Assembly: GCF_002155145.1 (NCBI RefSeq)
Contig: NZ_CP021323.1
Location: 3,410,001-3,474,000, forward strand
Reading direction: 5' to 3'
Length of the DNA stretch: 64,000 nt
Origin: Kushneria konosiri
Lineage (GTDB): Bacteria > Pseudomonadota > Gammaproteobacteria > Pseudomonadales > Halomonadaceae
Position 1 is the first letter of the stretch. Every line of letters starts with the position of its first letter. Under the pieces are notes generated by a model, which was not told the DNA's origin, ran no database searches, and saw only the letters and a program-made list of their open reading frames with translations. Position numbers and translations under genes: made by a program. This document shows, in pieces, positions 13,615 to 34,152 of this stretch.

Positions 13615-13628
13615 GTCATACATCGTAC
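13615..13628 (-). promoter_or_regulatory. Shared operator, copy 1 (FCD regulator gene)
   Basis: GTCATACATCGTAC on the plus strand, 13 of 14 bases equal to the copies at 20714 and 30043. A TATAGT hexamer lies 4 bases upstream of it in the direction of transcription. Confidence 0.6.
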
Positions 13629-13691
13629 AATGACTATAAGCCCTTTTACCGGGCCCTGCCTTTTGCCTTTGGCCTATTGAGAACATGTAAA

Positions 13692-13715
13692 GGGGCCTGT
13701 CTTTCGACAGGCCCC
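13692..13715 (-). terminator. Hairpin after the kdgD operon
   Basis: GGGGCCTGT (13692-13700) pairs with ACAGGCCCC (13707-13715), 35 bases after the dehydrogenase stop. The tail on the minus strand is only TTTA, so termination may be partial. Confidence 0.55.
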
Positions 13716-13749
13716 ATGGTTTACCCCGAACGTTTGACCGCCGAAATGA

Positions 13750-15327
13750 TCAGCCTTCGCGCCTGCCATCCACCAGTCGATCAAGGCCCAGGGGATTGGC
13801 CTCACGCAGCGCTTCCGGCAGCAGGGCATCCGGCAGGCTCTGATAGCAGACCGGGCGCAAAAAGCGCTTGATCGCCGCCGTGCCGACCGAGGTGGTACGA
13901 CCATCGGAAGTGGCCGGGAACGGGCCGCCATGCACCATGGCGTCACAGACCTCGACACCGGTCGGCCAGCCGTTGACCAGAATACGACCGGCCTTGCGCT
14001 CAAGAATGGGCACCAGTGCACGAGCGCTTTCAAGGTCGGCGTCATCCATCTGCAGGGTCGCGGTCAATTGCCCTTCCAGATGCTCGGCGACGGCTTTCAA
14101 CTCATCGCTGTCCACGCATTCAACGATCAGTGACGTGGCCCCGAAGACTTCATCCTGAAGCTCGGTGTCGGCCAGAAACGTCTGCGCCGAGGTGGCGTAC
14201 AGCCCGGCCTGACACGCATTCATGCCTTCGCCGACCGGACCGCGGCCCAGCTCTGTAATTCCATTATGGCCGGACAGACGCTCAACGCCTTCCTGATAGG
14301 CCTCGCTGATACCGGGGGTGAGCATGGTCTGGGCGTTGGCATCGGCCAGTGCTTCGGTCGCGGCCTGCTTGAAGGTCTCAAGCGCCTCGCCCTTGATGGC
14401 GATGACCAGCCCCGGGTTGGTGCAGAACTGACCCGCGCCCATGTTCAGCGACCCCACAAACGCCTTGCCCATGTCGCGACCGCGCGCCTTGAGCGCCTCC
14501 GGCAGCGGGAACACCGGGTTGATGCTGCTCATCTCGGCGTAGAAGGGAATGGGCTCGTCCCGTGACTGGGCCACCTTCCAGAGCGCCATGCCGCCATTGC
14601 GCGAACCGGTGAAACCAGCCGCCTTGATACGCTTGTCGGCGACCAGGGCTGTTCCCACGTCACGCCCGGAGCCGTACAGCAGGGAGAAAACGCCTTCCGG
14701 CAGCCCACAGCGCGAGACCGCCTTTTGAATGGCGCGTCCGACCAGCTCGGACGTGCCCGGATGGGCACCGTGGGCCTTGACGATGACCGGGCAGCCGGCG
14801 GCCAGTGCAGAGGCCGTGTCGCCACCGGCGACCGAGAAGGCCAGCGGGAAGTTGCTGGCGCCGAAGACCACGACCGGGCCCAGCCCGATGTGACGCTGGC
14901 GCAGATCGGCACGCGGCATCGGCTGACGATCCGGCATGGCCGGGTCAACGCGCACGTCCAGCCACTCCCCGTCACGTACAACGCGAGCAAAGAGTCTCAG
15001 CTGACCACAGGTACGCCCGCGCTCGCCCTGAATACGTGCCTGCGGCAGGCCGGTTTCGGCCACCGCACGCTCGATGAGCGCATCACCGATGGATTCGATC
15101 TCCTCGGCTATGGTCTCCAGAAACACGGCGCGGTCTTCAAGCGAGGTCTCGCGGTATGGATCAAAGGCCTGCCAGGCCAGCGCACAGGCCTGTTCGACTT
15201 CATTGCTGCTACCACCGCTGTACGCCGGTTCCAGCGTTTCACCGGTTGCCGGGTTGATGGCCTGAACCGGTTCGCGTGTGCCCTTGATGGCGTGCTGTCC
15301 GATAAGAAGTTCGCCTGTCAGTTGCAT
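13750..15327 (-). CDS. 2-Ketoglutarate semialdehyde dehydrogenase (NADP-type, aldarate pathway)
   Basis: 525 residues of the aldehyde dehydrogenase superfamily, subclass for alpha-ketoglutaric semialdehyde. The NAD(P)-binding region contains [19 protein letters not shown] (about 152-170). The glutamate is E265 ([13 protein letters not shown]) and the nucleophile is C302 ([12 protein letters not shown]). It oxidises the KdgD product to 2-ketoglutarate, which enters the TCA cycle. AGGAGA precedes the ATG. It is the last gene of the run kdgD-tctC-tctB-tctA-gudD-dehydrogenase, so the final pathway step is co-transcribed with uptake and dehydration. Confidence 0.92.
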
Positions 15328-15364
15328 CTTTGTCTCCTGAGGATTGCGTTGCGTATTGCCGGGT

Positions 15365-16693
15365 TCAGCGCACCAGCGCGGGGCGCTTGGGATCGAAGCT
15401 CCAGCCGTCGATCAGATACTGCATGGCGGTGGCATCGTTGCGCGCCCGAACATCGAGCGAGCGATAAAGTGCGTGCGCCTCATCCAGCTTGCCCTGGTCC
15501 AGCGTCACACCGAGTCCGGGGGTTTTCGGCACGGCAAGCTTGCCGTCGCGAATCTCGAACGGCGCCTCGGTCAGACGCTGGCCGTCCTGCCAGATCCAGT
15601 GGGTATCGATGGCCGTGATTTCCCCCGGGCAGGCCGCGGCCACGTGCGTCATCATGGCCAGCGAAATATCAAAGTGATTGTTGGAGTGTGAGCCCCATGT
15701 CATGCCCCACTCGTCACAGAGCTCGCCAACCATGACCGCGCCCTGCATGGTCCAGAAATGACAGTCCGCCAGCGGGATGTCGACCGAGTTCATTTGCGCG
15801 GCGTACTGCAGCTGCTTGAAATCGGTGGCAATCATGTTGGTGGCCGTGCGAAGACCGGTACGGCGCTTGAACTCCGCCATGGTTTCGCGGCCTGACCAGC
15901 TGCCCTCCTGACCACAGGGGTCCTCGGCGTAGCTCAGAATGTCGCGGATCGGCTCCAGCACCCGAACGGCCTCGTCAAGCGACCAGGCCCCGTTGGGGTC
16001 CAGCGTCAGCCGCGCCTCGGGGAAAATTTCGTGCATGGCGCGAATGCAATCGGCTTCCTGCTCACCGGGGAGCACACCGCCCTTGAGCTTGAAGTCGCGG
16101 AAACCGTAGCGCTCGTGCGCGGCACGGGCCAGTTCTGCCACGGCATCCGGCGTCAGCGCCTCCTGACAGCGTAGCCGCTCCCAGTCATCACGCGGATTCT
16201 CCGCCTTCGGATAGGGAAGATCGGTCTTTTGGGGATCGCCCAGCAAAAACAGATAGCCCAGTGCTTCAACCTCATCGCGCTGGCGCCCCATGCGGCCCAG
16301 CAGATCAGCGACCGGCATCTCGACGGCCTGACCGTAAAGATCCAGCAGTGCCGATTCGATGGCGGTCAGCACATGCACCGCCACGCGCAGATCAAAGGTC
16401 TGGCGGCCGCGTTCTTCGGGTCCCCCCTGTGCCAACAGCTTTCTGGCATTGTTGAGCGTACCCTTCCAGGCATTGAGCCGGGTGCCTTCCACCAGCGAAC
16501 GGCATTTCTCGAGCCCCTTGAGAATGCCTTCGCTGGAGGGAATTTCGCCGACGCCCCTGTTGCCGTCACTGTCTTCAAGTATCAGGACACAGCGTACGAA
16601 CCAGGGCGCGTGACCGCCGCTTAGATTGAGCAGGAAGCTGTCATGACCGGCGACCGGCACAATGGTCATGCGTGTAATGGTGGGCAGTGACAT
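15365..16693 (-). CDS. gudD: D-Glucarate dehydratase (copy 1)
   Basis: 442 residues of the enolase superfamily, same length class as E. coli GudD. Visible active-site residues are K202 and K204 (FKLKGG), D232 (DPNGAW), E257 (YAEDPCG), N in [10 protein letters not shown]310 (VDIPLAD) and the His-containing [10 protein letters not shown] (H336), all as in active GudD. It dehydrates D-glucarate (and L-idarate) to 5-keto-4-deoxyglucarate. AGGAGA lies upstream of ATG 16693. It sits 12 bases after tctA. A paralogue sits at 28550-29893; both share the C-terminal motif DPKRPALVR. Confidence 0.93.
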
Positions 16694-16705
16694 ACCAGAG
16701 GTCTC

Positions 16706-18196
16706 CTATGAATGGGCCGCCGTCTGGCGACGGTTCTGCCACAGGGTGAAGAACAAAAAGGCCGCCGAGACCAGCAGAAACACCAGGCTGATCGGACGCG
16801 TGACCAGCACACTCCAGTCGCCACTGGACAGCAGCAGTGCCCGGCGAATATTGGACTCGGCGATCGGCCCCAGAATCAGCCCCAGAATTACCGGCGCCGT
16901 CCCGAAGTCATAACGGTTGAGGAAATAGCCCAGCACCCCGAAGCCCAGCATCAGATAGACATTGAAGATGTCGGCATCGACGGCATACACCCCGATCACG
17001 CAGAACATCAAAATCAATGCCATCAAGAGCTTGCGTGGCACCTGCAGTACCTTGACGAATATCTGAATGCCGAACCACTGGATCAGCAGCATGAAGATGT
17101 TGGCGACAAAAAAGGCAATGAAGATGCCGTAGATGATCGAGCCGTTATCGGTAAACAGGGTCGGCCCCGGGCTGATGCCCTGGATCATCAGACCGCCCAT
17201 CAGCACCGCGGTCGCAGCCTCGCCCGGAATGCCCAGCGTCAGCATCGGGATCAGCGCCCCACCGACCAGTGCATTGTTGGAAGATTCAGAAGCAATGATC
17301 CCTTCAGGATGGCCGGTGCCGAACTTTTCCGGCGTTTTGGACATCTTCTTGGCCTGATCGTAGGACAGAAACGAGCCGATACTGCCACCAGCACCTGGAA
17401 TGGCGCCCACGATCGTGCCAATCACCGAGCTTGAGGCCAGCACCTTCCAGTAGCGCAGGGTTTCCAGCCAGCGCGGGGAAGCATGATCCATCTCGTTTTT
17501 GCTGTGCTCGGTGCGTTCAGGACCGAAATAATCGACCACATCCTTGAGTACCTGAGAGACGGCAAACAGCCCGATCAGCGCCGGCAGCAGGTTAACGCCG
17601 GTCAAAAGCGACAGATTGTTGAAGGTATAGCGCTGAACACCGGCCACCGGATCCGTTCCGATTGTGGCAATCAGCAACCCGATCAAACCGGCCACCAGCC
17701 CCTTGATCAGCGACTTGCTGGAAACAGAGGCGATGATCACCAGGCCAAAGACGCTCAACGCAAAGTATTCGGCAGGCCCAAAGCGCAGTGCAAAGTCGGC
17801 AATGGGCGGTGCCAGCAGGCTCAGTACCACGGCGCTGAAAATACCGCCGATGAACGAGGACACGATACAGATGCCCAGCGCTCGACCCGCCTCGCCACGG
17901 CGTGCCATGGGAAAGGCATCCAGCGTCGTGGCCACCGAGGATGGCGTACCGGGAATGTTCAAAAGCGTGGCCGAGACCGAGCCACCGGCAATGGCCCCGC
18001 ACAGGGTGCCCAGCAGCATGCCCATGCCCATGACCGGCGGCATGCCGAATGTCAGCGGCAGCAGCAGCGCAATGGCCATCGCCGCCGTCAGCCCGGGCAG
18101 CGCGCCCATGATCAGACCCAGCAGCGTCCCGCCGCCGATGACCAGCAGCACGTGCCATTGAAAGACCAGTCCGAGTGCCTCCAGATAATCTCCCAT
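16706..18196 (-). CDS. tctA: TctA-family permease of a tripartite tricarboxylate-type transporter (system 1)
   Basis: 496 residues and about 12 membrane segments. Family signatures are the N-terminal GALPGLTAAMAIALLLPLTF and, further on, TLLNIPGTPSSVATTLDAFP; the second half repeats the pattern (GAIPGAGGSIGSF and LGIPGEAATAVLMGGLMIQG). It is the large membrane subunit of a periplasmic-binding-protein-dependent secondary carrier. The stop of tctB is one base before its start, so the two are coupled. With tctB, tctC, gudD and kdgD in one operon, the substrate is probably glucarate or galactarate; this is inferred from context. Confidence 0.92.
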   Translation of the reverse strand: MGDYLEALGLVFQWHVLLVIGGGTLLGLIMGALPGLTAAMAIALLLPLTFGMPPVMGMGMLLGTLCGAIAGGSVSATLLNIPGTPSSVATTLDAFPMARRGEAGRALGICIVSSFIGGIFSAVVLSLLAPPIADFALRFGPAEYFALSVFGLVIIASVSSKSLIKGLVAGLIGLLIATIGTDPVAGVQRYTFNNLSLLTGVNLLPALIGLFAVSQVLKDVVDYFGPERTEHSKNEMDHASPRWLETLRYWKVLASSSVIGTIVGAIPGAGGSIGSFLSYDQAKKMSKTPEKFGTGHPEGIIASESSNNALVGGALIPMLTLGIPGEAATAVLMGGLMIQGISPGPTLFTDNGSIIYGIFIAFFVANIFMLLIQWFGIQIFVKVLQVPRKLLMALILMFCVIGVYAVDADIFNVYLMLGFGVLGYFLNRYDFGTAPVILGLILGPIAESNIRRALLLSSGDWSVLVTRPISLVFLLVSAAFLFFTLWQNRRQTAAHS

Positions 18197-18197
18197 G

Positions 18198-18722
18198 TCA
18201 TACCCCCATCATGCCGATGGTGGGCAGCACGATTTCAAACCCCACCGAGAAGATCAAAAAGATGGCGACCGAAACCACCGCCGAGAACAGGGCCAGCATC
18301 AGCACGCGGCCTGCGGCGATACTGTCGCCGGGCTGACGGGACAGCACGCTGACCATCGCCACACACAAAAAGAGAAACAGTGCCGTGGAAATGACATATC
18401 CCAGCGGCTCGAGCAGCAGTGCGTAGAGCACCAGTAACAGCGCCACGCCCCCCCAGGCCACCACGGGGACCCAGGCAGAGACCCTGGCCGCGTCATCACG
18501 TGTCTCGCGGGCCAGCAGCGTGCCGGCAATCAGACCGCGAATCAGCGAAATCAAAAGCAGAATCGCAATGGCGGACGAGATGGCCCGAGGGAAAAATGCG
18601 GGGGAGAGACTCCCCCCCGCAGCATTGGCCGGCAGGTGCCAGGCCTGCTGAAGAAACCAGCCCGCCAGCGCCAGCAGCACCAGATGAAACAGTGCATCAC
18701 TGCGTGTTTTGACCATCTTCAA
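18198..18722 (-). CDS. tctB: TctB-family small membrane subunit (system 1)
   Basis: 174 residues with four hydrophobic segments, the usual TctB plan (SDALFHLVLLALAGWFLQQAW, then SPAFFPRAISSAIAILLLIS). The start ATG has GGCAGGAGG upstream. TctB subunits are poorly conserved; the assignment rests on size, topology and the position between tctC and tctA. Confidence 0.85.
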   Translation of the reverse strand: MKMVKTRSDALFHLVLLALAGWFLQQAWHLPANAAGGSLSPAFFPRAISSAIAILLLISLIRGLIAGTLLARETRDDAARVSAWVPVVAWGGVALLLVLYALLLEPLGYVISTALFLFLCVAMVSVLSRQPGDSIAAGRVLMLALFSAVVSVAIFLIFSVGFEIVLPTIGMMGV

Positions 18723-18736
18723 TGCCTCCTGCCGCT

Positions 18737-19681
18737 TTACTGGCGGATCGCTTTGGCTTCTTCGATCAGGGGTTTGGAGGTTTTTTCAACGAACTGATCC
18801 AGCTCCTCGCCATACAGCGGGCTGATGTCCGAGCCCATGCTGCGGGCGGCCTTCTGGAACTGCGGATCCTCAACGGCCTGCTTGACGGCCTCGACCCACT
18901 TCGCTTCGATGGCCGGATCAAGCCCTTTCGGAGCGGCAATGCCACGCCACTGGGAAAGCTCAAAGTCGTACCCGGACTCTTCCATGGTGGGCGTGTCCGG
19001 CAGTGCGCCGCTGCGCTCTTCGCCGGTGGTCACGATCGCGGTCAGGCGATCGCCATTGACGGCCGAGATGACTTCCGAAGGATTGAGTACCACGCCATCG
19101 ATATGGCCACCCATTGCGGCGGACACGGCGGCAGAACCGCTGTCAAACGGAATGACCTCGATATTGAGCCCCAGCGCCTCACCCAGCATCAGCGAGACGA
19201 TATGCGTGGAGGAGCCCACACCGGAGGCACCGATGCGCAGCGGCTTGCCGCTGGCCTTGAGGTCACTGCTCAGACTGTCCAGATCCTGCCAGGCATCGTT
19301 TTTGCGCACGGCCATCACATAGGGCTCGACCAGCACGCGTGCGATGTAATCAAAATCGTCTTTCGTAAAGGCCACATTGCCCAGACCTTCCAGTGTGAAG
19401 GTCGCATTGGTCGGAATGGTCACGGTGTAACCATCGGGTTTGGAGGCCACCGCTCTTGAGAAGCCGACCGCCCCGCCGCCACCTGACAGGTTGCGCACCA
19501 CGATGGTCGCGCCGAGGGCCTTCTCGAGAGAGGGCTGAAGCGCACGCACCACGTTATCGGCACCGCCACCGGCCGACCACGGCACGATGAACTCGATGTT
19601 TTTGGAAGGGTAATCGGCGGCCATGGCCATGCTGCTGGCCAGTATCGTGGCGGCCCCGAATGCACTCAGTAAGATTTTCAT
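18737..19681 (-). CDS. tctC: TctC-family periplasmic solute-binding protein (system 1)
   Basis: 314 residues from ATG 19681, where GGGGAGA is upstream; the longer frame to 19708 lacks one. The signal peptide ends at SSMAMAADYPSK. Family signatures follow: IEFIVPWSAGGGADNVVRAL, NLSGGGGAVGFSRAVASKPD, KPLRIGASGVGSSTH, and QWRGIAAPKGLDP near the C-terminus. It captures the substrate in the periplasm for TctAB. It lies between kdgD and tctB. Two paralogues occur at 23413 and 27573. Confidence 0.92.
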   Translation of the reverse strand: MKILLSAFGAATILASSMAMAADYPSKNIEFIVPWSAGGGADNVVRALQPSLEKALGATIVVRNLSGGGGAVGFSRAVASKPDGYTVTIPTNATFTLEGLGNVAFTKDDFDYIARVLVEPYVMAVRKNDAWQDLDSLSSDLKASGKPLRIGASGVGSSTHIVSLMLGEALGLNIEVIPFDSGSAAVSAAMGGHIDGVVLNPSEVISAVNGDRLTAIVTTGEERSGALPDTPTMEESGYDFELSQWRGIAAPKGLDPAIEAKWVEAVKQAVEDPQFQKAARSMGSDISPLYGEELDQFVEKTSKPLIEEAKAIRQ

Positions 19682-19744
19682 GTTGTCGATCTCCCCGTCC
19701 GTCGACACAGGCGCTGACCTGCGCGCAAGGACATTCCTGAATGG

Positions 19745-20656
19745 TTAACGTACACGCTCGATCAGCATCTTGAGCTGTTCGACTTCCTCGGCACTGGGCA
19801 TGGTCAGCGGAGCACGCACGTTGCCCGCCGGATAGCCCACCTGAGCAGCCCCGGCCTTCACCAGACTGACCGCATAACCACGACACTTGTCGCGCATGGC
19901 AATGAAGGGAATGAAAAAGTCATTCGTCAGACGCGCCACGGTCTCGTGGTCACCGGCACGCAGCGACTTGTAGAAATGCACCGCCATCTCGGGCACAAAA
20001 TTGAACACCGCCGAGGAGTAGGTATTCACGCCGATGGAGAGATAGGCCTCGGCAAAGATCTCGGCGGTCGGTACCCCACCGATGTAGATCAGGCGATCAC
20101 CGACCGTCTTGATGATGGTGTTGAGCGACTGGATATCGCCGCGCCCATCCTTGAGACCGATCAGGTTGGGGCAGCGATCGGCCAGTGCCTTCACGGCCGG
20201 CGCTTCCAGCGCACCGTTGGCCCGGTTGTAATAGATGACGTTGATGCTGGTGGATTCACAGATTTCGGCGGCGTACTCGACGATACCTTCCTGGGAGCAC
20301 TCGGTCAGATAGGGCGGCATCAGAAGGATGCCATCGGCACCGGCGGCTTCAGCAGCGGCGGCGTGAGCCTTGGCCATGGTGATGCTCTGGCCGGCACTGG
20401 CGATGACGGGCACACGACCCGCGGTCTCTTCCACGGCGACCTTCACGACTTTTGCGAACTCCTCAAGGCCCAGATTGAAGAATTCGCCCGTACCGCCGGC
20501 CACAAACAGCGTGGAGATTTCATACTCGAGCAACCAGGCAATCCGCTTGCGATAGCTCTCGGCATCGAATTGACCGGCGCTGTCAAAGTCCGTCACCGGG
20601 AAGGAAAGCAGGCCATCGCCTGCAGCACGTGCAACGTCAGCTCGTGAAAACGTCAT
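19745..20656 (-). CDS. kdgD: 5-Dehydro-4-deoxyglucarate dehydratase
   Basis: 303 residues from ATG 20656 (AGAGGA upstream), the standard KdgD length. It belongs to the class I aldolase / DHDPS superfamily: substrate loop VAGGTGEFFNL, Tyr in INVIYYNRANG and Schiff-base Lys169 (LIGLKDGRGD). It decarboxylates and dehydrates 5-keto-4-deoxyglucarate to 2-ketoglutarate semialdehyde, the substrate of the dehydrogenase at 13750. It is the first gene of a six-gene operon. The shared operator sits 57 bases upstream of the ATG. Confidence 0.95.
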   Translation of the reverse strand: MTFSRADVARAAGDGLLSFPVTDFDSAGQFDAESYRKRIAWLLEYEISTLFVAGGTGEFFNLGLEEFAKVVKVAVEETAGRVPVIASAGQSITMAKAHAAAAEAAGADGILLMPPYLTECSQEGIVEYAAEICESTSINVIYYNRANGALEAPAVKALADRCPNLIGLKDGRGDIQSLNTIIKTVGDRLIYIGGVPTAEIFAEAYLSIGVNTYSSAVFNFVPEMAVHFYKSLRAGDHETVARLTNDFFIPFIAMRDKCRGYAVSLVKAGAAQVGYPAGNVRAPLTMPSAEEVEQLKMLIERVR

Positions 20657-20713
20657 GATGGGTCCTCTGGATTGGCCTGCCCCGCCGCGGGGTGGAGCGT
20701 TGGCAGTCACTTT

Positions 20714-20743
20714 GTCATACATCATACTTTTAAAGCCATTATA
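20714..20743 (-). promoter_or_regulatory. kdgD operon promoter with shared operator, copy 2
   Basis: GTCATACATCATAC (20714-20727 on the plus strand). On the minus strand a TATAAT hexamer (20743-20738) lies 10 bases upstream of it, so the operator would cover the transcription start, as expected for repression. The TRAP operon shows the same hexamer-to-operator spacing. Confidence 0.65.
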
Positions 20744-20775
20744 CGAAGGGCATAGACAGCCCTTCGATCAACTTG

Positions 20776-21900
20776 TCAGGCGCTAAAGGTCTGATGATTG
20801 ACCGTCCACTGTCGCGCCTGCTCGGTCAGGGTGATACCCAGCCCCGGGCGGTCCGGTACGATCATGCGGCCATCGCGGGTTTCAAGCGTCTCGTTGAATA
20901 GCGGTGCCAGCCAGTCGAAATGCTCGACCCACGGCTCGGTAGGATAGGCCGCGGCCAGATGCAGATGAATTTCCATGGCAAAGTGCGGCGCCAGCTGCAG
21001 GCCGGCCCGAGACGCCATCGTGGCCAGCTTCAGAAACTGGGTAATCCCGCCAATGCGCGGCGCATCGGGCTGAATGATATCGGCACTGCTGTGCTCGATG
21101 AGTGTCATGTGCTCGGCGACGCTTGAGAGCATTTCACCGGTCGCGATCGGTGTATCAAGCGCGGCGGCAAGCGCGGCGTGACCTTCGGCGTCGTGGGCAT
21201 CCAGGGGCTCCTCGATCCAGACCAGTTCGTATTTTTCCATCGCACGGCCAAAGCGCAGGGCGCTGGCGCGGTCCCACTGCTGGTTGGCGTCCACCATGAG
21301 CGGCACATTGTCACCGATATGGGCACGGACGGCGGCTACGCGCTCAAGATCGATACGCATGTCGGGCTGACCGACCTTGATCTTGATACCGGCGATCCCG
21401 CTTTCCAGCGAGTGCGTGGCGTTTTTGAGCACCTCCTCGATCGGCGTATGCAAAAAGCCGCCGGAGGTGTTGTAGCACTGCACCGAATCACGATGGGCCC
21501 CGATCAGCTTGGCCAGCGGCAGACCGGCACGTTTGGCCTTGAGATCCCACAGGCCGATATCGACGGCTGCTATCGCCTGGGTCGACACCCCGCCCCGCCC
21601 GACCGATGCGCCGGCCCAGACCAGCTTTTGCCACAGCCTGTCAATGTCGTTGGGGTCTTCACCGATGATGGCCGGTGCAATTTCGCAGGCGTGGGCATAC
21701 TGGGCATACCCCCCGGCGCGCTTGGAGTAGCTGAAACCGATGCCGGTGTGTCCATCGCGTGTGGTGATCTCGGCAAACAAAAAAGAGACTTCGGTCATCG
21801 GCTTTTGCCGACCGGTCAGCACCTTGGCATCACTGATGGGCGTGGCCAGCGGCAGCAGAACATGGGAGAAGGTAATCGAGGAGATGGCATCAAAGGGCAT
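20776..21900 (-). CDS. Mandelate racemase-family acid sugar dehydratase, galactarate/L-talarate type
   Basis: 374 residues of the enolase superfamily. K173 and K175 (KIKVG), metal ligands D204 (MVDANQQW), E230 (WIEEPLDAHD) and E256 (ATGEMLSS), D279 (QPDAPRIGG) and catalytic H306 (LAPHFAMEIHLHL) are all present. The loop NTSGGFLHTP is typical of L-talarate/galactarate dehydratases. The product would be 5-keto-4-deoxyglucarate, feeding KdgD. It does not carry the shared 14-bp operator but has the LacI-type operator 47 bases upstream, so it appears to be under a different regulator. Exact substrate is not proven; other acid sugars are possible. Confidence 0.85.
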   Translation of the reverse strand: MPFDAISSITFSHVLLPLATPISDAKVLTGRQKPMTEVSFLFAEITTRDGHTGIGFSYSKRAGGYAQYAHACEIAPAIIGEDPNDIDRLWQKLVWAGASVGRGGVSTQAIAAVDIGLWDLKAKRAGLPLAKLIGAHRDSVQCYNTSGGFLHTPIEEVLKNATHSLESGIAGIKIKVGQPDMRIDLERVAAVRAHIGDNVPLMVDANQQWDRASALRFGRAMEKYELVWIEEPLDAHDAEGHAALAAALDTPIATGEMLSSVAEHMTLIEHSSADIIQPDAPRIGGITQFLKLATMASRAGLQLAPHFAMEIHLHLAAAYPTEPWVEHFDWLAPLFNETLETRDGRMIVPDRPGLGITLTEQARQWTVNHQTFSA

Positions 21901-23153: not shown

Positions 23154-23296
23154 GCAGTTCTCCAGCAAAACCTCAAAATGACAGCGAAGGCCATGGTACA
23201 GGCAAGCCCCTGATCCCGATAATAACGCCTCTTCTGCAATGACGTGGCCTGTATCGCGCTTTTCTATCGCGAAGCTTTTTGTGCAACGATGGTCGC

Positions 23297-23312: not shown

Positions 23313-23412
23313 AAATCTGCGTAAGATGGTTCGAGCTGTTTCACGACCACCGCGGACAAGGATGACACCGTCCTGCGGTCGTCATGTCTTTACCCAAGGG
23401 GAACTGTCGCAC

Positions 23413-24409: not shown

Positions 24410-25432
24410 CTAGCGTAGCGACACCCGGCCGGCCAGACGCTGCACCTCCTGCCAGATGTCCGGGTTGACCTCGATCTCGGTGACATAGTGACGACGATGA
24501 AACGTCGAAGCGCCGGGCCAGCGCACTGCCCTGCCGGACTCATCCGGCGTGGCCTGCGATAGATGGGTTGTCATGTCATCGACCATCCTTCGACAGGCGT
24601 CAATGCCACCAAGCTGCTCGGGATCAAACACCATGAATATCTGTGAACTGCCGGTGCCGCTACCGCGCTCGACCCTGTCGATCTCGTGAGTCGATCGCCC
24701 CTGAGACAACAGCGCTGCCATGGCATCGAGCAGGATGGCCAGTCCCGAGCCCTTCCAGTAACCGGTCGGCAGAATACGGCGAGTGGCCTGAATGACACCG
24801 GGATCGCACGTCAGCGCCCCCTGCTCGTCGAATCCGCCTGCCACCGGCAATGAAGCGCCCTGCGCCTTCAAGACACCCAGACGGCCGTAGGAGAACTGTG
24901 ACATGGCCATATCCAGCACCAGCGGTGATGTCTCTCCTGGAACGGCCATGACCAGCGGATTGTTGCCGATGCTTTCGCTGCTGGCGCCCCAGGCCGGCAT
25001 GCAGGATTCCGTATTGGTCCACATGATGGCCGCCATGCCCTGCTCCACGGCATGCCAGCCATAGGTGCCGCCGCGCATCCAGTGGGTGGTATTGCGCACG
25101 GCCACCAGCCCCATGCCATGTTCTCGCGCCAGGGCAATGGCCCGCTCGGTGGCCCGCATGGCATGACGCACGCCCAGCCCCTGATGGCCGTCATACACTT
25201 CCAGCGCTCCCAGCTTTTGTACCTGCTCAAACGCCCCGTTCGGGTCGACCCAGCCGCGCGCGAGATAATCCACCAACCGCGGAATGCGATCCAGGCCGTG
25301 GGAATTCACCCCGTCACGGGTGCTCTCGGCGTGGATACGCGCACACGCCAGGGCGTCTTCCGGGGCAAGGCCGGCGCCAAGTAGCGCCTGCTCGATCACG
25401 TCCTGCAAAAGCTCAATGGTGACGCTGGTCAT
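24410..25432 (-). CDS. YiaK-type 2,3-diketo-L-gulonate reductase (Ldh/MDH-like family)
   Basis: 340 residues from ATG 25432 (GAGGGA upstream). It belongs to the LDH2/MDH2 NAD(P)-dependent oxidoreductase family. Strong YiaK-like segments are SHGLDRIPR, VAVRNTTHWMRGGTYGWHA, LPVAGGFDEQGALT and ILPTGYWKGSGLAILLDAM. In E. coli YiaK reduces 2,3-diketo-L-gulonate. Here it is the last gene of the gudD2-tctC-tctB-tctA operon and overlaps tctA by 20 bases, so it may act on a keto acid sugar linked to aldarate use. The exact substrate is uncertain. Confidence 0.82.
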   Translation of the reverse strand: MTSVTIELLQDVIEQALLGAGLAPEDALACARIHAESTRDGVNSHGLDRIPRLVDYLARGWVDPNGAFEQVQKLGALEVYDGHQGLGVRHAMRATERAIALAREHGMGLVAVRNTTHWMRGGTYGWHAVEQGMAAIMWTNTESCMPAWGASSESIGNNPLVMAVPGETSPLVLDMAMSQFSYGRLGVLKAQGASLPVAGGFDEQGALTCDPGVIQATRRILPTGYWKGSGLAILLDAMAALLSQGRSTHEIDRVERGSGTGSSQIFMVFDPEQLGGIDACRRMVDDMTTHLSQATPDESGRAVRWPGASTFHRRHYVTEIEVNPDIWQEVQRLAGRVSLR

Positions 25433-26945: not shown

Positions 26946-26979
26946 GAAACTCTCCTGAATGGCGTGTCGAGTGATCGCC

Positions 26980-27477
26980 TCAAGACGGCAGCGGAATCTC
27001 GAACAATTCGGTAAACACGTAAAAGATGACCACGGCCAGAACAACGGCAAAAACGCCGGCCCCGGCCAGACCCTTCGCTCGGCGAGCCGCTGTCAGCTCA
27101 CGCCATGTGCCGCCGGCCAGCAGCAGCCCGACCACACAGCAGAAGGTAAAAATGGCCGTACTGACGATGTAGCCCAGCCGCTCAAACATGAGGATATAGA
27201 TCAGCGAGAGCGCCACGATCAAAAACCACTGCACGATGCCGCGGGATGATCTCGCCGATTCGATGCCTGCGCCGGCGGCCTGCCATTCGCGAAAATCCTT
27301 GATCAGACACGGCACGGCAAATACAAACACCAGTACCGAAATCAGCTTTGGGAAAAACGCAGGCGACAGGTCACCGACGATCTCGATGTTGGGCAGCGTC
27401 GTGGAGACGGCAAACGCCGCCACCGAGGCGATGACCAGCAACAGATCGAACAGCGGCTTGCCAATGTCACGTTGCAT
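26980..27477 (-). CDS. tctB: TctB-family small membrane subunit (system 2)
   Basis: About 165 residues; start placed at ATG 27477, with GAGG 11 bases upstream, though ATG 27489 is possible. Four hydrophobic segments: DLLLVIASVAAFAVST, FPKLISVLVFVFAVPCLI, WFLIVALSLIYILMF and GAGVFAVVLAVVIFYVF. Position between tctC and tctA supports the assignment, since sequence conservation in this subunit is low. Confidence 0.82.
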   Translation of the reverse strand: MQRDIGKPLFDLLLVIASVAAFAVSTTLPNIEIVGDLSPAFFPKLISVLVFVFAVPCLIKDFREWQAAGAGIESARSSRGIVQWFLIVALSLIYILMFERLGYIVSTAIFTFCCVVGLLLAGGTWRELTAARRAKGLAGAGVFAVVLAVVIFYVFTELFEIPLPS

Positions 27478-27572
27478 GATTGAAAACATCCTCGCTGAAG
27501 ACCCGGCCATCCATCCATGGCCGGATCAGGATGGCACGTCGCCGCCGTGCGGCGACGTGAACAGCCCGGGCG

Positions 27573-28520
27573 TCACTTTTTCGCCAGGTCGCCGGCTGCT
27601 TCACGCATGACCTCTGCCGAACGGTCGATGAAACTGTCGAGTTCATCACCATAAAGCGGCGCCAGCTGCGTGCCGAGGTTTTCAGCCGTTTGCTCATAGG
27701 AGCCATCGGCCACGATCTGCTTGATGGCCTCGACCCAGCGCTGCTCTGCCTCTTGCGGAATGCCCTTCGGGGCTGCAATGCCCCGCCAGACCGTCAGGGT
27801 CAGGTCATACCCCTCTTCCTGAAAGGTCGGGACATCAGGCAGTGCGTCACTACGTTCGGCATAGCTCATGGCCAGTGCTGTCAGACGCCCGGACTCCAGC
27901 GCCGAGCGCAGCTCGGCCCCGCCGAGCACCACGGCATCCACGTGATTGCCCATCGCAGCAGAGATGGTCTCCGAGCCGCCGGGATAGGGAATGATGTTGA
28001 AGTCTGCCCCGGTAATATTTTGCATCGCCACCGCCGCGATATGCGCCGAGGAACCGACGCCCGAGACACCGACCTTGAGCCGTTTGCCCTGCTTTGAGGC
28101 TTCGATGAGACTTTTGAGGTCCTTGTACTTGTCGTTATCGCCGACCGCGATCACATAAGGCTCTTCGATCACCTTGGCAATGAAGTCGAAGTCGTTATGG
28201 GTAAACGCCACATTCCCCATGGCCTCAAGCGTCAGCATGGCATTGCTCGCGGCCAGCAGGGTGTAGCCATCGGGTTTTGAAGCCGCCACCCGGGAGGTAC
28301 CGACCGCCCCGCCACCGCCGGCAATATTGCGAATGACCAGATCCTGACCAAGCTGCTTTTCCAGCAGCGGCTGCAGGGCGCGCACGAAAGTATCGTTACC
28401 GCCCCCGGCAGAAAACGGCACCACCATATCAATGCTTTTGGTGGGGTAGTCTGCGGCCAGCACCGGAGCACCCATCGCCATCGCTGCGGTCATCGCAAAA
28501 GTACTCAGTAACCTTTTCAT
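27573..28520 (-). CDS. tctC: TctC-family periplasmic solute-binding protein (system 2)
   Basis: 315 residues from ATG 28520, preceded by AAGGGAG. The signal peptide ends MGAPVLAADYPTK. Family motifs: IDMVVPFSAGGGNDTFVRAL, NIAGGGGAVGTSRVAASKPD, LKVGVSGVGSSAH and VWRGIAAPKGIPQEA. It starts 30 bases after the upstream gudD stop, and has a 95-base gap to tctB. It is the third TctC in 10 kb. Confidence 0.92.
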   Translation of the reverse strand: MKRLLSTFAMTAAMAMGAPVLAADYPTKSIDMVVPFSAGGGNDTFVRALQPLLEKQLGQDLVIRNIAGGGGAVGTSRVAASKPDGYTLLAASNAMLTLEAMGNVAFTHNDFDFIAKVIEEPYVIAVGDNDKYKDLKSLIEASKQGKRLKVGVSGVGSSAHIAAVAMQNITGADFNIIPYPGGSETISAAMGNHVDAVVLGGAELRSALESGRLTALAMSYAERSDALPDVPTFQEEGYDLTLTVWRGIAAPKGIPQEAEQRWVEAIKQIVADGSYEQTAENLGTQLAPLYGDELDSFIDRSAEVMREAAGDLAKK

Positions 28521-28549
28521 GATCCTGCTCCCTTTTTTCCAAACCGTTA

Positions 28550-29893
28550 TCAACGCACCAGAGCTGGACGTTTCGGATCAAACGTCCAGCCATTGATCAG
28601 ATACTGCATCGCCATGGCATCGTTACGCGCCCCGGCCGGCAGGGACTTGTAAAGCGCATTCGCCTTGTCGATGGCCTCCATGTCGAGCTCGATACCCAGG
28701 CCCGGCGCATCGGTCACCGCGACATGACCATCAATGATCTCGGGAGGCTCACGGGTCAGGCGGGCATCGCCTTCCTGCCAGATCCAGTGCGTGTCCAGCG
28801 CAGTCATCGACCCCACGGCAGCAGCCCCCACCTGAGCGAACATGGCCAGCGAAATATCGAAGTGATTATTGGAATGCGATCCCCAGGTCATGCCGTGGTC
28901 GGCACACAGCCGGGATACACGTACGGCGCCGGAGAGCGTCCAGAAATGCGGGTCGGCGAGCGGAATGTCCACGCTGCGAAGCATCAGGGCATGGGCCATT
29001 TCACGCCAGTTGGTCGCGACCATGTTGGTCGCCACCGGCAGTCCGGTGGCGTGACGGAATTCAGCGAGAATCTCGCGACCGGAGAAGCCCTCTTCGGCAC
29101 CGCAGGGGTCCTCGGCATAGGCGAGCACGCCCCGCAGATCCTTGCACAGGCTGATCGCTTCCTGCAGGGACCAGGCACCGTTGGGATCGATGGTCGTACG
29201 CGCTTCGGGAAAGGCCTTCGACAGCGCCGTGACGGCCTCGATTTCCTGCTCCCCGGGCAATACGCCGCCCTTGAGCTTGAAATCGCGAAAGCCATAGCGG
29301 TCCTGTGCGGCCTGAGCCATTTCAACAATGCGCGCAGGCGTCATGGCGGCCCTGTCACGCTGTCGATACCACTCATGCGACTGGTCCGGTGTGGACTGTC
29401 GATAATCCAACGGTGTCTGCTCACCGTCGCCGACAAAAAAGAGATAGCCCAGCACTTCAACGCTATCGCGACGCTTGCCATCCCCCAGCAGCTCGGCCAC
29501 CGGCACGCCCAGATGCTGGCCCATCAGATCCAGCAGCGCCGCTTCAAGGGCAGCGACTGCATTGACGCGCAGCTCGAAGGTCCAGGCCCCCCGGCCAAAG
29601 TCGCTGAAATCGGCGCGCTGACCGCTGGCCGAAAGCGTTGACACCATCGAGCGCAGCCGGCCCAGCGACTGGCCTTCCACCACCTGTCGGGCCTGCTCAA
29701 GCGAGCGCTGAATCGTCTCACCGCCGGGGGCTTCTCCGACGCCAACCCGGCCGGCGCTGTCTTCAAGAATCAAAATATTGCGCGTAAAAAACGCAGAGTG
29801 CGCGCCGCCCACATTGAGCAGCATGCTGTCACGTCCGGCCACGGGGATGACCCGCATGGACACAATGGTGGGTGTTTCGCTACGAGCTGCCAT
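28550..29893 (-). CDS. gudD: D-Glucarate dehydratase (copy 2)
   Basis: 447 residues, with AAGGGA before ATG 29893. The active-site set is again complete: K206 and K208 (FKLKGG), D236 (DPNGAW), E261 (YAEDPCG), N in [10 protein letters not shown] in [10 protein letters not shown], and [10 protein letters not shown]. It differs from copy 1 throughout but has the same order of motifs and the same last residues. Possible roles are a second aldarate isomer (idarate or glucarate) or a dose increase. It leads the gudD-tctC-tctB-tctA-yiaK-like operon, with the shared operator about 150 bases upstream. Confidence 0.92.
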
Positions 29894-30042
29894 GACAATC
29901 CCTTGATGTATGAAGATCTCGCCGCATGTCAGCCCGTATCGCCAGGAGTCCTTCGTGACATCGTGGGCGCGTATACGGTCTGGACACCTGAGAGCAGCGT
30001 CACTTTCAAAAAGGCTGAATCAGTGGAGGTGGCAGTTAAAAT

Positions 30043-30056
30043 GTCATACATCATAC
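30043..30056 (-). promoter_or_regulatory. Shared operator, copy 3 (gudD copy 2 operon)
   Basis: GTCATACATCATAC, identical to the kdgD copy, with matching flanks (ATACTTTT after it). No TATAAT lies at the kdgD-type spacing; the reverse strand of the operator itself reads TATGAT, which may serve as the -10. Confidence 0.65.
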
Positions 30057-30163
30057 TTTTGATGCCACACGACCTTGGTTCATTGAACTTTGGCCAAACG
30101 GGGGGGGGTTATGACCCCATGCCAATATCGTCGACACCCTGACAGCCCGCCCAGGGCCCAATG

Positions 30164-30189: not shown

Positions 30190-30233
30190 GATCAGGGTAA
30201 AGAGCGGAGTTATGCTTTCAGACGGGGGCTGTC

Positions 30234-31031
30234 TCAGTCATCGGGATGACCAATACTGGCAAACTTGCCCCCCTGGTAGATGACTGCCGGGTCATCAGGG
30301 TCAGGATTCCCGGCTGCCGCTTCGGTTTCCGCCCGCCAGGGTTCGGAGCTGTCCTTCGGCACCCAGCCGAGAAATGAAGCATTGCGGTTGTCCCACCAGC
30401 GCTCGCTGTTGTTGGAAACGCCATAGATCACGGTACAGCCCAGCTTCGGTGCCACAAACGCTCGCTCCAACAGTGCCACGAAATCCTCCACACTCATCCA
30501 GGTGGCCATCATTCGGGTATCGGCCGGCTTTGGAAAGCAGGAGCCGATCCGTACATTCAACGTTTCAACGTTGAACTTGTGGTAGTAAAGGCTTGCAAGG
30601 TCTTCGCCAAAACACTTGGAGACCCCGTAAAGCGAGTCGGGGCGGTGTGGCGATTCGGTATCGAGATGTGTTGTACGTGGATAGTAGCCAATGGTGTGGT
30701 TGGAGCTGGCAAAGACGACCCGCGGGCACCCGTGATGTCTGGCGGCCTCATACAGATTGTAGGTCCCAATGATGTTGGCCTGCAGGATGCTCTGCCAGGG
30801 ACTTTCCACCGAAATGCCCCCCAGATGAATGATGCCATCACAATCGCGCACCAGCTCGCTGACGGCCTCGCCATCAGACAGTTCGCAGCGCACGAGCTCT
30901 TCGTGATCGCCCTGCTGTTCCATCTCGACGATATCAGACAGACGTACCTGGCGCGCCAGGCGTGAAAGATATGGCCGCAGGGCCTGTCCTAGCCCGCCTG
31001 CAGCCCCGGTCACCAGAAGACGATTCAGCAC
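30234..31031 (-). CDS. udh: Uronate dehydrogenase
   Basis: 265 residues from GTG 31031. This start is chosen because AAGGAG sits 6 bases upstream; an ATG at 31052 would place that site inside the gene. It is an extended-type SDR with nucleotide motif LLVTGAAGGLGQALRP, the central segment FASSNHTIGYYP and catalytic Y135/K139 (SLYGVSK), as in known Udh enzymes. It oxidises D-galacturonate or D-glucuronate with NAD+ to the aldarolactone. It is the last gene of a TRAP transporter operon, so the TRAP system likely imports uronates. The lactone must then open, spontaneously or by a lactonase not present here. Confidence 0.92.
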   Translation of the reverse strand: MLNRLLVTGAAGGLGQALRPYLSRLARQVRLSDIVEMEQQGDHEELVRCELSDGEAVSELVRDCDGIIHLGGISVESPWQSILQANIIGTYNLYEAARHHGCPRVVFASSNHTIGYYPRTTHLDTESPHRPDSLYGVSKCFGEDLASLYYHKFNVETLNVRIGSCFPKPADTRMMATWMSVEDFVALLERAFVAPKLGCTVIYGVSNNSERWWDNRNASFLGWVPKDSSEPWRAETEAAAGNPDPDDPAVIYQGGKFASIGHPDD

Positions 31032-31067
31032 GGTATTCTCCTTTGAACGCATTAGTACAAGGCAGGG

Positions 31068-32348
31068 CTATTCGATGACACCCGGCAGCCACATGGAGAT
31101 GACAGGAATGTAGGTCACCAGCATCAGTACAACAAAAAGCGCCAGATAAAACGGCCAGATGGTTCGAACGGCCTGTTCCATCTTGATCTTGCCAATCACG
31201 CTGCCGACGAACAGACATCCTCCGACCGGTGGTGTGCAAAGGCCGATGCCCAGGTTGATCATCATGACCACGCCAAACTGGATGGGGTCCATGCCGAACT
31301 GGGTCGCAATCGGCAAAAAGATCGGCGTACAGATCAGAATCAGCGCCGCCATGTCCATGATCATGCCCAGTGCCAGCAGCAGCACGTTGAGCATCAAAAG
31401 GATGACAATGGGGTTATCCGAGATATCCAGCAGCATGTCGGTCAGAAGCTCCGGCACGCTGTAAAGCGCCAGCAGATAGGAAAACGCCGAGGCACAGCCC
31501 ACCAGGATCATGACCAGCGAAGTCGTCCGTACCGACTGATAGACCGCCTTTTTGAAGTTTCCCCACCTCAATTCACGATAGACCAGTCCCGTAATCACGA
31601 TGGCGTAGATGGCCCCGAAAGCACCTGACTCTGTCACGGTCAGAATACCTGACAGCACGCCGCCAACGATGATGATGGCGGTCATAAGCCCCGGAATTGC
31701 GGCCACCAGACTGATGAACAGCGCGCGCCAGCCCGGAAAGGACTCGGCCGGATAGCCTCTTCTGACCGCAACCACATAGGCCGCCACCGCCAGGGCCACA
31801 CACATCAGAACGCCCGGTACGACACCCGCCATGAACAGCTGCGTCACCGAAATACCGCCACCGGCCGCCACGGCGTAAAGAATCATGTTATGGCTGGGAG
31901 GGATGACTACCCCGGCAATCGAGGAGGTCACCGTCACGTTGACGGCGTAGTCGGCATCGTAGCCCTTCTCCTTCATCACCGGGATCAGGATCGAACCCAG
32001 TGCCGAAGTGTCGGCCACCGCAGAGCCTGAAATACCGCCAAAGAGCATCGAAGAGCTGACGTTGACCAGCCCCAGGCCCCCGCGCACGCGCCCCACGGCC
32101 GCCGAGGCCAGCCTTACCAGACGGTCGGAAATGCCCCCATGCAGCATCAGCTCGCCGGCAAAGATAAAAAACGGAATGGCCAGCAGTGAGAACACCGAAA
32201 TACCCGACAGAATGCGCTGAAAGCCGACAAACAGTGGCAGCCCTTCATATAGAAAGGTCACGACGGCTGCCAGGCCAACAGCGAAGGCGACCGGCGCCCC
32301 AATCACCAGGCCGATAAAAAACACGCCAAACAGAATCATCAGGCCCAT
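31068..32348 (-). CDS. dctM: TRAP transporter large membrane subunit
   Basis: 426 residues and about 12 membrane segments of the DctM family: AIPFFIFAGELMLHGGISDRL, SSMLFGGISGSAVADTSALG, VIPPSHNMILYAVAAGGGIS and GIGLCTPPVGGCLFVGSVIG. A GGGGGT site precedes ATG 32348. It is the sodium-driven transport channel of a binding-protein-dependent carrier. The gene lies 5 bases after dctQ and 36 bases before udh, so uptake and the first oxidation step are in one operon. Sodium coupling suits a halophile. Confidence 0.93.
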   Translation of the reverse strand: MGLMILFGVFFIGLVIGAPVAFAVGLAAVVTFLYEGLPLFVGFQRILSGISVFSLLAIPFFIFAGELMLHGGISDRLVRLASAAVGRVRGGLGLVNVSSSMLFGGISGSAVADTSALGSILIPVMKEKGYDADYAVNVTVTSSIAGVVIPPSHNMILYAVAAGGGISVTQLFMAGVVPGVLMCVALAVAAYVVAVRRGYPAESFPGWRALFISLVAAIPGLMTAIIIVGGVLSGILTVTESGAFGAIYAIVITGLVYRELRWGNFKKAVYQSVRTTSLVMILVGCASAFSYLLALYSVPELLTDMLLDISDNPIVILLMLNVLLLALGMIMDMAALILICTPIFLPIATQFGMDPIQFGVVMMINLGIGLCTPPVGGCLFVGSVIGKIKMEQAVRTIWPFYLALFVVLMLVTYIPVISMWLPGVIE

Positions 32349-32353
32349 GCGGT

Positions 32354-32887
32354 TTACCCCCTGGTGGTATGGGTAAGACGTTCAAGAATGTTGGCGCCGG
32401 CAAACAGCACCATCAGCACGCCGCAGATCGCCAGAGGCGCCGCCCGCCAGCTCTCCGTCAGCCCGATCATGGGGATCGCCCGACTGGTGTTATCAAGCAC
32501 CAGAATGCTTCCCTGCCAGGCCATGAAGGCACCAAAAATGAGCACAAAAAGATCGGCAATATGGCACATGATCACTCTTGGAACGGCCGGCATGGCCTCA
32601 CGTACCATGTCGATACTCAAGTGCGTGTTCTGGCGCACGCCGGCGGCCGCCCCCAGACAGGTGATATAGACCACGATCAGCAGCGAGGACTGCTCAACCC
32701 AGGTGGGCGTGTCGTTAAGCACGTAACGGCCAAAGACCAGCCAGCCGAACGAGGCAATCAGAAAGACCAGCAGCGCTCCGGAGACCACGATGCACAGATG
32801 GGCCAGGCCATCGAGCATGCGCCCTGCCATGCCTGCTTGAGCATGCTCCTCGGGAATGTCCCGAATCTGATCGGTAGAGCTATCCAT
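32354..32887 (-). CDS. dctQ: TRAP transporter small membrane subunit
   Basis: 177 residues with four membrane segments and the DctQ-type motifs FGWLVFGRYVLNDTPTWVEQ and a following YITCLGAAAGVRQNTHLSID. It joins the DctM subunit to the binding protein. It lies between dctP and dctM. Confidence 0.9.
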   Translation of the reverse strand: MDSSTDQIRDIPEEHAQAGMAGRMLDGLAHLCIVVSGALLVFLIASFGWLVFGRYVLNDTPTWVEQSSLLIVVYITCLGAAAGVRQNTHLSIDMVREAMPAVPRVIMCHIADLFVLIFGAFMAWQGSILVLDNTSRAIPMIGLTESWRAAPLAICGVLMVLFAGANILERLTHTTRG

Positions 32888-32951
32888 GAGACCTGTACTC
32901 CCGGGCAGGCTCCACCATCAGCAGCGGAGCGCGCCCTTCGCGGTAGTGGCG

Positions 32952-33950
32952 TTATTGTGCGTTGCGAATATCGTTGAGCAGCGGCTCAAGATCGGGATGT
33001 TCCTTGATGAAGGCGGCGTAGATCGGCTCCATTTTTGCCTGAAAGGCCGGCTTGTCTACCTCGTTGATTTTGGCACCGGCTGCGATGACGTCCTCGCGAC
33101 TCTTTTTGGAACCTTCTGCCCAGAGCTTGCGCTGAAGCGTTGCGGCATCAAGTGCGGCCTTGCGCACAATCTCCTGATCCTGCTCGGACAGCTTGTCCCA
33201 GCTTCTTTTGGCAATACACAGGCACTCGGGCAGGATCAGGTGCTGGGTTTCGGAGTAGTACTTCGCGATTTCATCGTGCCCGCTGGATTCGTAGGAAGGA
33301 AAATTGTTTTCCGCCCCGTCAATGACGCCGGTCTTGAGCGACTGATATACCTCGCCATAGGACATGGGTGTGGCGTTTCCGCCCAGCGCATTGATCATGT
33401 CCACATAGAGGTCATTGTTCATGACGCGAACCTTGAGCCCCTGCATGTCTTCGGGCTCATTGATGGGACGTTTGGTGTTGTAGACGCTGCGCGCCCCGGA
33501 ATCGAACCAGGACAGGGCCACCAGCCCCTTCTGTTCCAGTGCGTCGGCAAACCGCTTGCCGATCTCGCCATCCATGACCTTGTGCATGGCATCGACATCC
33601 TTGAACAGAAACGGCAGCGACAGCACATCGGTTGCCGGCACGATCGGACCCATCGGCCCCATATTGAAGTTGGCAAAGTTCAGCGCCCCACTACGGGTCT
33701 GCTCAATGGCATCGGGTTGATCACCCAGTACCCCATTGTGATAGACCTTTGCCTTGACGCGTCCCTCCGTATTCTCGGTGACTTCCTTGACGAAGCTGTC
33801 GAGCGCCTCACTGTTGGGGTAACCCGGCGGATGAGCGTTCCAGCCACGCCAGTTATCGGCCTGCGCGGGCAGCGTCGTGATGGCCATGACGCCAGCCACG
33901 GCCGCGGCCTGAAGATAACGAACAGGGGTGGAGGATAATCTGATCGACAT
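32952..33950 (-). CDS. dctP: TRAP transporter periplasmic solute-binding protein
   Basis: 332 residues from ATG 33950, with CAGGAGAG 8 bases upstream; the frame to 34127 would run through the promoter. The signal peptide ends at TTLPAQADNW. DctP features follow: the conserved VRVMNNDLYVDMINALGGNA with its carboxylate-binding Arg, and TPMSYGEVYQSLKTGVIDGA. It is the first gene of dctP-dctQ-dctM-udh. The neighbour udh and the shared operator 170 bases upstream suggest D-glucuronate or D-galacturonate as ligand; this is inferred. Confidence 0.92.
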   Translation of the reverse strand: MSIRLSSTPVRYLQAAAVAGVMAITTLPAQADNWRGWNAHPPGYPNSEALDSFVKEVTENTEGRVKAKVYHNGVLGDQPDAIEQTRSGALNFANFNMGPMGPIVPATDVLSLPFLFKDVDAMHKVMDGEIGKRFADALEQKGLVALSWFDSGARSVYNTKRPINEPEDMQGLKVRVMNNDLYVDMINALGGNATPMSYGEVYQSLKTGVIDGAENNFPSYESSGHDEIAKYYSETQHLILPECLCIAKRSWDKLSEQDQEIVRKAALDAATLQRKLWAEGSKKSREDVIAAGAKINEVDKPAFQAKMEPIYAAFIKEHPDLEPLLNDIRNAQ

Positions 33951-34122
33951 GGCATGCTCTCCTGGCGGTGAGTAAAGGGGTTTTCGCCAATCAACGTGTT
34001 CCCCGTACGCTGGGCGGAAGGTAGCCATGTCCAGTGAGCATTGAGCGACCCGATTCGGGCGGGTCACCTGCTGACTATAAGAGGCCTGTTCGGATGGGAA
34101 TGGCATGGCTGGCATGCAATTT

Positions 34123-34152
34123 GTCATACATCATATCAATGACACCACTATA
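34123..34152 (-). promoter_or_regulatory. TRAP-udh promoter with shared operator, copy 4
   Basis: GTCATACATCATAT (34123-34136 on the plus strand). On the minus strand TATAGT (34152-34147) lies exactly 10 bases upstream, the same spacing as at the kdgD promoter. This is the best evidence that the hexamer is a true -10. Confidence 0.65.

Follow-up and report, generated by a model that had tools for sequence, protein, structure and literature searches.

A candidate GguR operator before four units of a uronate and aldarate gene cluster in Kushneria konosiri

Four copies of one word in a sugar-acid gene cluster

The window analysed here is a 64-kb stretch of DNA (positions 3410001-3474000) from the genome of Kushneria konosiri, which consists of one contig of 3,584,631 bases; Kushneria is a genus of Halomonadaceae. 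It holds a cluster of minus-strand genes for the uptake and breakdown of uronates and aldarates (Table 1), with a regulator at 12705-13433 that has a GntR winged helix-turn-helix and an FCD domain. The enzymes together fit the oxidative route that leads from uronate through aldarate to 2-oxoglutarate, an established pathway. A 14-bp word, which lies within a longer site of 18 bp and forms its core, stands before four units of the cluster, and the regulator is very probably the GguR of this organism and would repress the cluster through that word.

The pattern GTCATACATCRTAY has exact matches at 13615, 20714, 30043 and 34123 of the window, all on the plus strand. As the genes lie on the minus strand, the word reads RTAYGATGTATGAC on the gene strand, namely GTACGATGTATGAC at 13615, GTATGATGTATGAC at both 20714 and 30043, and ATATGATGTATGAC at 34123. 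The copy at 20714 precedes a unit of kdgD, a tripartite tricarboxylate transporter (TTT), gudD and an aldehyde dehydrogenase gene; the one at 30043 precedes gudD, tctCBA and a dlgD-like gene; that at 34123 precedes dctPQM, which encode a tripartite ATP-independent periplasmic (TRAP) transporter, together with udh; and the copy at 13615 precedes the FCD regulator. This exact pattern scan confirmed an earlier note on this DNA, which had placed each of the four words before its own unit, and the units that it had named (kdgD, a second gudD operon, TRAP-udh and the FCD regulator) are those found by domain searches. That note would have given up its reading if the word were frequent elsewhere in the genome, and the four copies are the only exact matches in the 3.58 Mb. 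When up to two mismatches are allowed, the whole genome contains 34 matches, 30 of them outside the four and scattered (16 for a reversed-pattern control), and with three mismatches the window alone shows no excess (13 matches for 8.66 expected, a number reached by 11 of 100 shuffles). The signal is thus carried by exact copies and not by mismatched ones.

Two of the words also bear on gene starts. The longest open reading frames (ORFs) of kdgD (19745-20725) and dctP (from 34127) begin at ATG codons within the word, probably upstream of the true starts, so that the automatic start calls at 20725 and 34127 may be wrong. For kdgD, the real start is probably the ATG at 20656, which is preceded by AGAGGA, while dctP offers further in-frame ATG codons at 34115, 34106, 34028 and 33950.

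Table 1. Genes and candidate operators of the uronate and aldarate cluster (window coordinates)
Feature	Position	Strand	Basis or remark
FCD/GntR-family regulator, best read as GguR	12705..13433	-	Pfam PF00392 GntR 72.1 bits, PF07729 FCD 93.7 bits
Operator before regulator	13613..13630	-	TTGTACGATGTATGACCT, 3 mismatches to family consensus; weakest case
Aldehyde dehydrogenase, presumed 2-oxoglutarate semialdehyde dehydrogenase, last gene of kdgD unit	13750..15327	-	Pfam Aldedh 147 bits
Glucarate dehydratase-like gudD, first copy	15365..16693	-	TIGR03247 682 bits, below cut-off 828.7
TTT transporter	16706..19708	-	tctA 16706-18196, tctC 18737-19708 (Pfam TctA, TctC)
Probable tctB of first TTT transporter	18198-18722	-	Assigned by place only, from ORF list
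kdgD, 5-dehydro-4-deoxyglucarate dehydratase	19745..20656	-	TIGR03249 391.6 bits, above cut-off 373.95
Operator before kdgD	20712..20729	-	AAGTATGATGTATGACAA; TATAAT 10 bases before 14-bp word
L-talarate/galactarate dehydratase	20776..21900	-	NF047820 689 bits, cut-off 500
LacI-family regulator inside cluster	22050-23168		Domain search
3-dehydro-L-gulonate 2-dehydrogenase-like, last gene of second gudD unit	24410..25465	-	NF009750 348 bits, cut-off 316
Second TTT transporter tctA, tctB, tctC	25413..28553	-	Pfam TctA, TctB, TctC
Glucarate dehydratase-like gudD, second copy	28550..29893	-	TIGR03247 708.6 bits, below cut-off 828.7
Operator before second gudD unit	30041..30058	-	AAGTATGATGTATGACAT
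Uronate dehydrogenase udh	30234..31052	-	3rft uronate dehydrogenase E 2.8e-98; 3ay3 E 6.2e-140
TRAP transporter dctM, dctQ, dctP, presumed uronate, UxuPQM-like	31068..34127	-	Pfam DctM, DctQ, DctP
Operator before TRAP-udh unit	34121..34138	-	TGATATGATGTATGACAA; TATAGT 10 bases before 14-bp word

Some genes of the cluster deserve a further remark. The aldehyde dehydrogenase falls below the cut-off for each of 25 NCBIfam models among the matches listed. The talarate/galactarate dehydratase gene has no site of its own within five mismatches in the window scan. The 3-dehydro-L-gulonate 2-dehydrogenase-like gene is an odd partner for the oxidative route. Finally, a TctC-type binding protein is encoded on the opposite (plus) strand at 23326-24366, beside the LacI-family gene and with no recognised tctAB adjoining on that strand; a tctC homologue was found at the matching place in all six fetched stretches of the genus that reach there.

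Co-occurrence of word and regulator in related genomes

Distribution was assessed in 275 genomes sampled at family level, in which the regulator was called at E <= 1e-60. The word as given is present in 127 genomes (2 for the reversed control) and the regulator in 147; word and regulator occur together in 122 genomes, the word without the regulator in 5, the regulator without the word in 25, and neither in 123. Among the 25 regulator-only genomes, 23 hold at least one one-mismatch site, which in 22 of them is GTATGATGTATTAC, a one-base variant found in 45 of the 275 genomes. If word and variant are counted together, both site and regulator are present in 144 genomes, the site alone in 8, the regulator alone in 3 and neither in 120, i.e. 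the site occurs in 144 of 147 genomes with a regulator orthologue vs. 8 of 128 without one. This co-occurrence survives stratification by genus (140 observed for 93.5 expected, chi-square 170). It supports the link that the earlier note had inferred between the word and the 12705-13433 regulator, and disfavours the adjacent FCD protein. A scan of named genomes returned only Kushneria, the regulators of five named relatives being 88-93% identical.

The adjacent protein, a second FCD regulator at 11879-12688, is of the same family as GguR, adjoins the cluster and, when called at E <= 1e-50 (177 of 275 genomes), shows a weak co-occurrence with the word (126 genomes with both, 26 with the site only, 51 with this regulator only and 72 with neither). 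However, none of the 49 genomes that have it without GguR carries the word, vs. 18 of the 19 that have GguR without it, and its gene stands beside that for malonyl-CoA decarboxylase. On these genome counts it was set aside, and it is extremely unlikely to bind the word. Its gene lies on the plus strand, convergent with the GguR gene and divergent from the malonyl-CoA decarboxylase gene (10472-11845, minus strand).

The operator was also approached from the genes. We collected the upstream regions of 400 genes homologous to window genes, which are related and partly overlapping, from 47 stretches fetched beside the regulator in relatives. Unguided k-mer counts in these upstreams rank TGATGTAT, TATGATGTAT, TGTATGATGTAT and GTATGATGTATGAC first for lengths of 8, 10, 12 and 14, respectively. 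The 18-bp operator reads (t)TGTATGATGTAT(G/T)ACA(w). Seventy-one aligned sites, picked with the consensus so that their core is partly given by construction, yield TTGTATGATGTAT(G/T)ACA(A/T), with G and T at position 13 in a ratio of 56:44 and conserved outer TTGT and ACAA; they derive from 74 upstreams with a site of at most four mismatches, reduced to 73 by requiring 45 bases before the site and to 71 by removing duplicates. At this threshold, a site precedes 43 of 46 kdgD, 10 of 27 dctP, 8 of 46 gguR and 3 of 10 second-gudD homologues, as well as 4 of 19 and 4 of 14 homologues of two tctC types, 1 of 38 of the first gudD and 1 of 34 of the talarate/galactarate dehydratase gene. None was found in the fetched stretches before aldehyde dehydrogenase, tctA, dctM, udh, dlgD or lacI homologues. 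In 44 stretches (853,678 bases), 83 sites with at most three mismatches were counted, vs. 0-1 for each of ten shuffled consensuses, a control made with the G-form of the consensus only. A 3.4-kb stretch of genome G091 (L236) was left out of the region sets, and the 10-base stretch L240 was not used.

The same upstreams bear on the LacI-family regulator, whose gene lies inside the cluster. In the 47 fetched stretches, homologues of it (E 1e-15) account for only 10 of the 400 upstreams vs. 46 each for gguR and kdgD, and on this count it was set aside; the probability that it reads the word is negligible.

Direction, shape and promoter context of the operator

The site runs in the same direction as its gene in 74 of the 76 cases with a recognised gene just downstream, a count that leaves out seven of the 83 sites. 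This fixed direction, the ATG codons inside the word and the kdgD ORF that runs in frame from it would suit a role in the transcript, the word acting at the mRNA 5' end or in a short leader reading frame instead of as an operator. However, relative to the word, kdgD is found in each of the three frames when relatives are compared, inverted-repeat forms of the word exist, and the word tracks a DNA-binding protein. Such a role is very unlikely and was set aside on the offsets.

As an operator, the word is probably an imperfect inverted repeat of TGTATGA with a two-base spacer, judging from the forms found in relatives. Five of the 275 genomes contain an exact inverted repeat, TGTATGANNTCATACA, vs. 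1 for the reversed control. Each copy reads TGTATGATGTCATACA, shares TGTATGATGT with the word and differs from it in the second half only, and each lies in the gene context of the word: roughly 50-60 bp upstream of gguR (G075 and G077), some 180 bp away from a kdgD site (G197), and upstream of gudD in clusters of the order gudD-kdgD-regulator (G006 and G008). In the last two genomes (L141-L145), which have no GguR orthologue, further copies of the word stand before tctA-containing and gudD units. Around eight orthologues and 22 more distant homologues, no inverted repeat of TTGTATGA of 16 to 20 bp was found with fewer than three mismatches; the symmetric form is therefore rare in Kushneria.

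The word can also be described as a nearly perfect 7-bp tandem repeat, TGTATGA-TGTATKA, which would leave regulator and regulon unchanged and alter the geometry alone: GguR would bind asymmetrically, in the manner reported for NanR, a single DNA-binding domain contacting the consensus and several dimers lying next to one another. NanR is a GntR-family repressor of Escherichia coli which, according to the available text of PMC8012715, binds GGTATA repeats asymmetrically at a directional operator downstream of the RNA polymerase site. Family, placement and a directional repeated operator are thus shared, NanR (NF003011) is the best NCBIfam match of the window regulator (118.9 bits), and the single direction of 74 of 76 sites is as expected. 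However, this score is far under the NanR cut-off of 260, the ligand of NanR is N-acetylneuraminate, and the consensus found here is TTGTATGATGTATKACAA, not a GGTATA repeat. In addition, inverted-repeat forms of equal total length occur in the gene context of the word, two of them directly upstream of gguR, the outer TTGT...ACAA show approximate symmetry, and the T-variant, as we read its letters, leaves the tandem and shifts toward the inverted repeat. We regard the tandem arrangement as unlikely. A tentative and rather doubtful possibility is that GguR reads a polar operator, in which the strong half-site TGTATGA would always lie on the promoter side and the second half would be rewritten. 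This polar form would keep one orientation across many genera, and the symmetric inverted repeat would serve a small number of clusters, two gguR promoters among them. If so, one regulator would accept both symmetric and directional operators, and repression at the transcription start would be affected by the direction as such.

Promoter hexamers would place the imperfect inverted repeat near that start. Read on the gene strand, the gap between an upstream hexamer and the word measures exactly 10 bases at both 20714 (TATAAT) and 34123 (TATAGT), as had been noted earlier, and 4 bases at 13615 (TATAGT). Of the 71 aligned sites, 25 have TTG at -34 from the 18-bp site (each of the 23 other offsets gives 0-7) and 30 have TAnnnT at -11 to -6 (a count without control). 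These fixed-offset counts fit a promoter with a 17-bp spacer and a start at the edge of the site; before kdgD and dctP in the window, the -10 sits three bases further upstream than in this family pattern. Over the -10 of the TRAP-udh promoter, positions 34137-34165 read, on the gene strand, CAATGACAC, 11 bases and GTGTCATTG, a perfect 9-bp inverted repeat, the left arm of which is largely kept in relatives and the right arm not.

A probable regulon of the GguR kind

Regulons of this kind have already been predicted in Halomonas, and the present one is not new in kind. In the available text of PMC5507952, a GntR-family GguR is predicted in Halomonas sp. HL-48 and HL-93 to control a galactarate/glucarate operon with TctABC, and in HL-93, which grew on both uronates, also an operon with Udh, Gli, Gci and the UxuPQM TRAP transporter. 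The window looks like the Kushneria counterpart of this regulon: it has a GntR-family regulator, TctABC within a galactarate/glucarate operon, and Udh together with a TRAP transporter. It differs from the regulon as described in that text by a second gudD-tctCBA unit, also marked by the word, and a scan of 30 window proteins recognised neither Gli nor Gci. The likeness was assessed on family (that text gives GntR only, with no FCD domain named) and targets; the published sites stand in Supplementary Table S2 of PMC5507952. A text search of papers with the operator letters, to which supplements did not belong, returned a single, unrelated paper on human circular RNA and no printed operator.

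The regulator had been assigned in the earlier note to the FCD/GntR regulators of the UxuR, ExuR and GguR classes. The FCD/GntR assignment holds, and the names ExuR and UxuR do not: like these GntR-family regulators of hexuronate genes in Escherichia coli (PMC9369180, as far as its available text goes), the window protein is of the GntR family, but it misses both equivalog cut-offs by a wide margin (79.8 bits for a cut-off of 396 with ExuR, NF008571; 65.5 bits for 442 with UxuR, NF007588).

We read the protein as GguR and the word as its operator because of the restriction of exact words to four, their co-occurrence with the regulator, their position relative to the genes, their conservation and the inverted-repeat forms. 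A J Bacteriol study of 2019 on the hexuronate regulons of Proteobacteria reportedly describes UxuR/GguR regulons and the oxidative uronate route.

Several observations weigh against this reading. Three regulator-bearing genomes have neither word: in G050 and G091, near-variants of the site stand before kdgD, and in G001 the regulator (69% identical) lies near a contig end, with no site and no KdgD at E 1e-40. Among the eight genomes with a site only, two (G006 and G008) hold a regulator (40% and 39% identical, respectively) in their gudD-kdgD-regulator cluster; the other six (G115, G136, G161, G228, G229 and G274) remain unexplained, and inspection of the sequence around the word in G115 and G161 for what it marks gave no result. 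KdgD (called at E <= 1e-90 in 150 of 275 genomes) tracks the site nearly as well as GguR does (144 genomes with both, 8 with the site only, 6 with KdgD only), which is expected because target and regulator belong to one cluster; the only two of the six genomes with KdgD but no GguR to have the site are again G006 and G008. As the genomes are related, raw Fisher values overstate the association, and 43 of the 76 oriented sites are those of kdgD and hence not independent. A plain palindrome reader would not require the site to be invariably asymmetric. At 30043, the hexamer in the -10 place is TCGTGT, i.e. there is no -10 box. Lastly, when -35/-10 pairs were searched freely ahead of the 71 sites, the best pairs scored no better than in shuffles (means of 7.58 and 7.56), partly because TATGAT is contained in the word; the fixed-offset counts are the sole support for the promoter.

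The earlier note had the regulator control all four units, its own gene included. The link between word and regulator stands, and control of its own gene through 13615 is weaker. In three relatives (G003, G005 and G007; L195, L197 and L198), the equivalent site precedes an extra operon with tctC and tctA homologues, located between the aldehyde dehydrogenase gene and gguR and not present in the window, so that 13615 may belong to such an operon. It may be the site of a transporter operon lost or never gained, now driving gguR. As in the window, no extra operon was found in G004 and G009, where the site precedes gguR with four mismatches, and G002 retains only a five-mismatch trace of a 13615-type site. 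Autoregulation of GguR through 13615 is thus plausible, and the weakest of the four cases.

Binding, repression, effector and dimer geometry are what we infer for the mechanism. A GguR dimer would bind the 18-bp operator, of consensus TTGTATGATGTAT(G/T)ACAA, as an imperfect inverted repeat: the strong half-site TGTATGA would face the promoter and, beyond a spacer of two bases, a weaker half-site with other letters would face the gene. As the operator would lie just downstream of the -10 box and over the presumed transcription start, bound GguR would block initiation. When uronates or aldarates arrive, an acid of the pathway would release GguR, and the TRAP and two TTT transporters, Udh, two GudD, KdgD and the aldehyde dehydrogenase would be made together, taking uronate to 2-oxoglutarate.

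A reading by eye thereby becomes a testable regulon, with one regulator, one operator and four units for a route from uronate to 2-oxoglutarate in Kushneria. The operator rule, i.e. half-site, direction and place near the start, is usable to predict targets in related bacteria, and, with directional and symmetric forms both at hand, the way in which an FCD repressor sits on its DNA can be put to a direct test.

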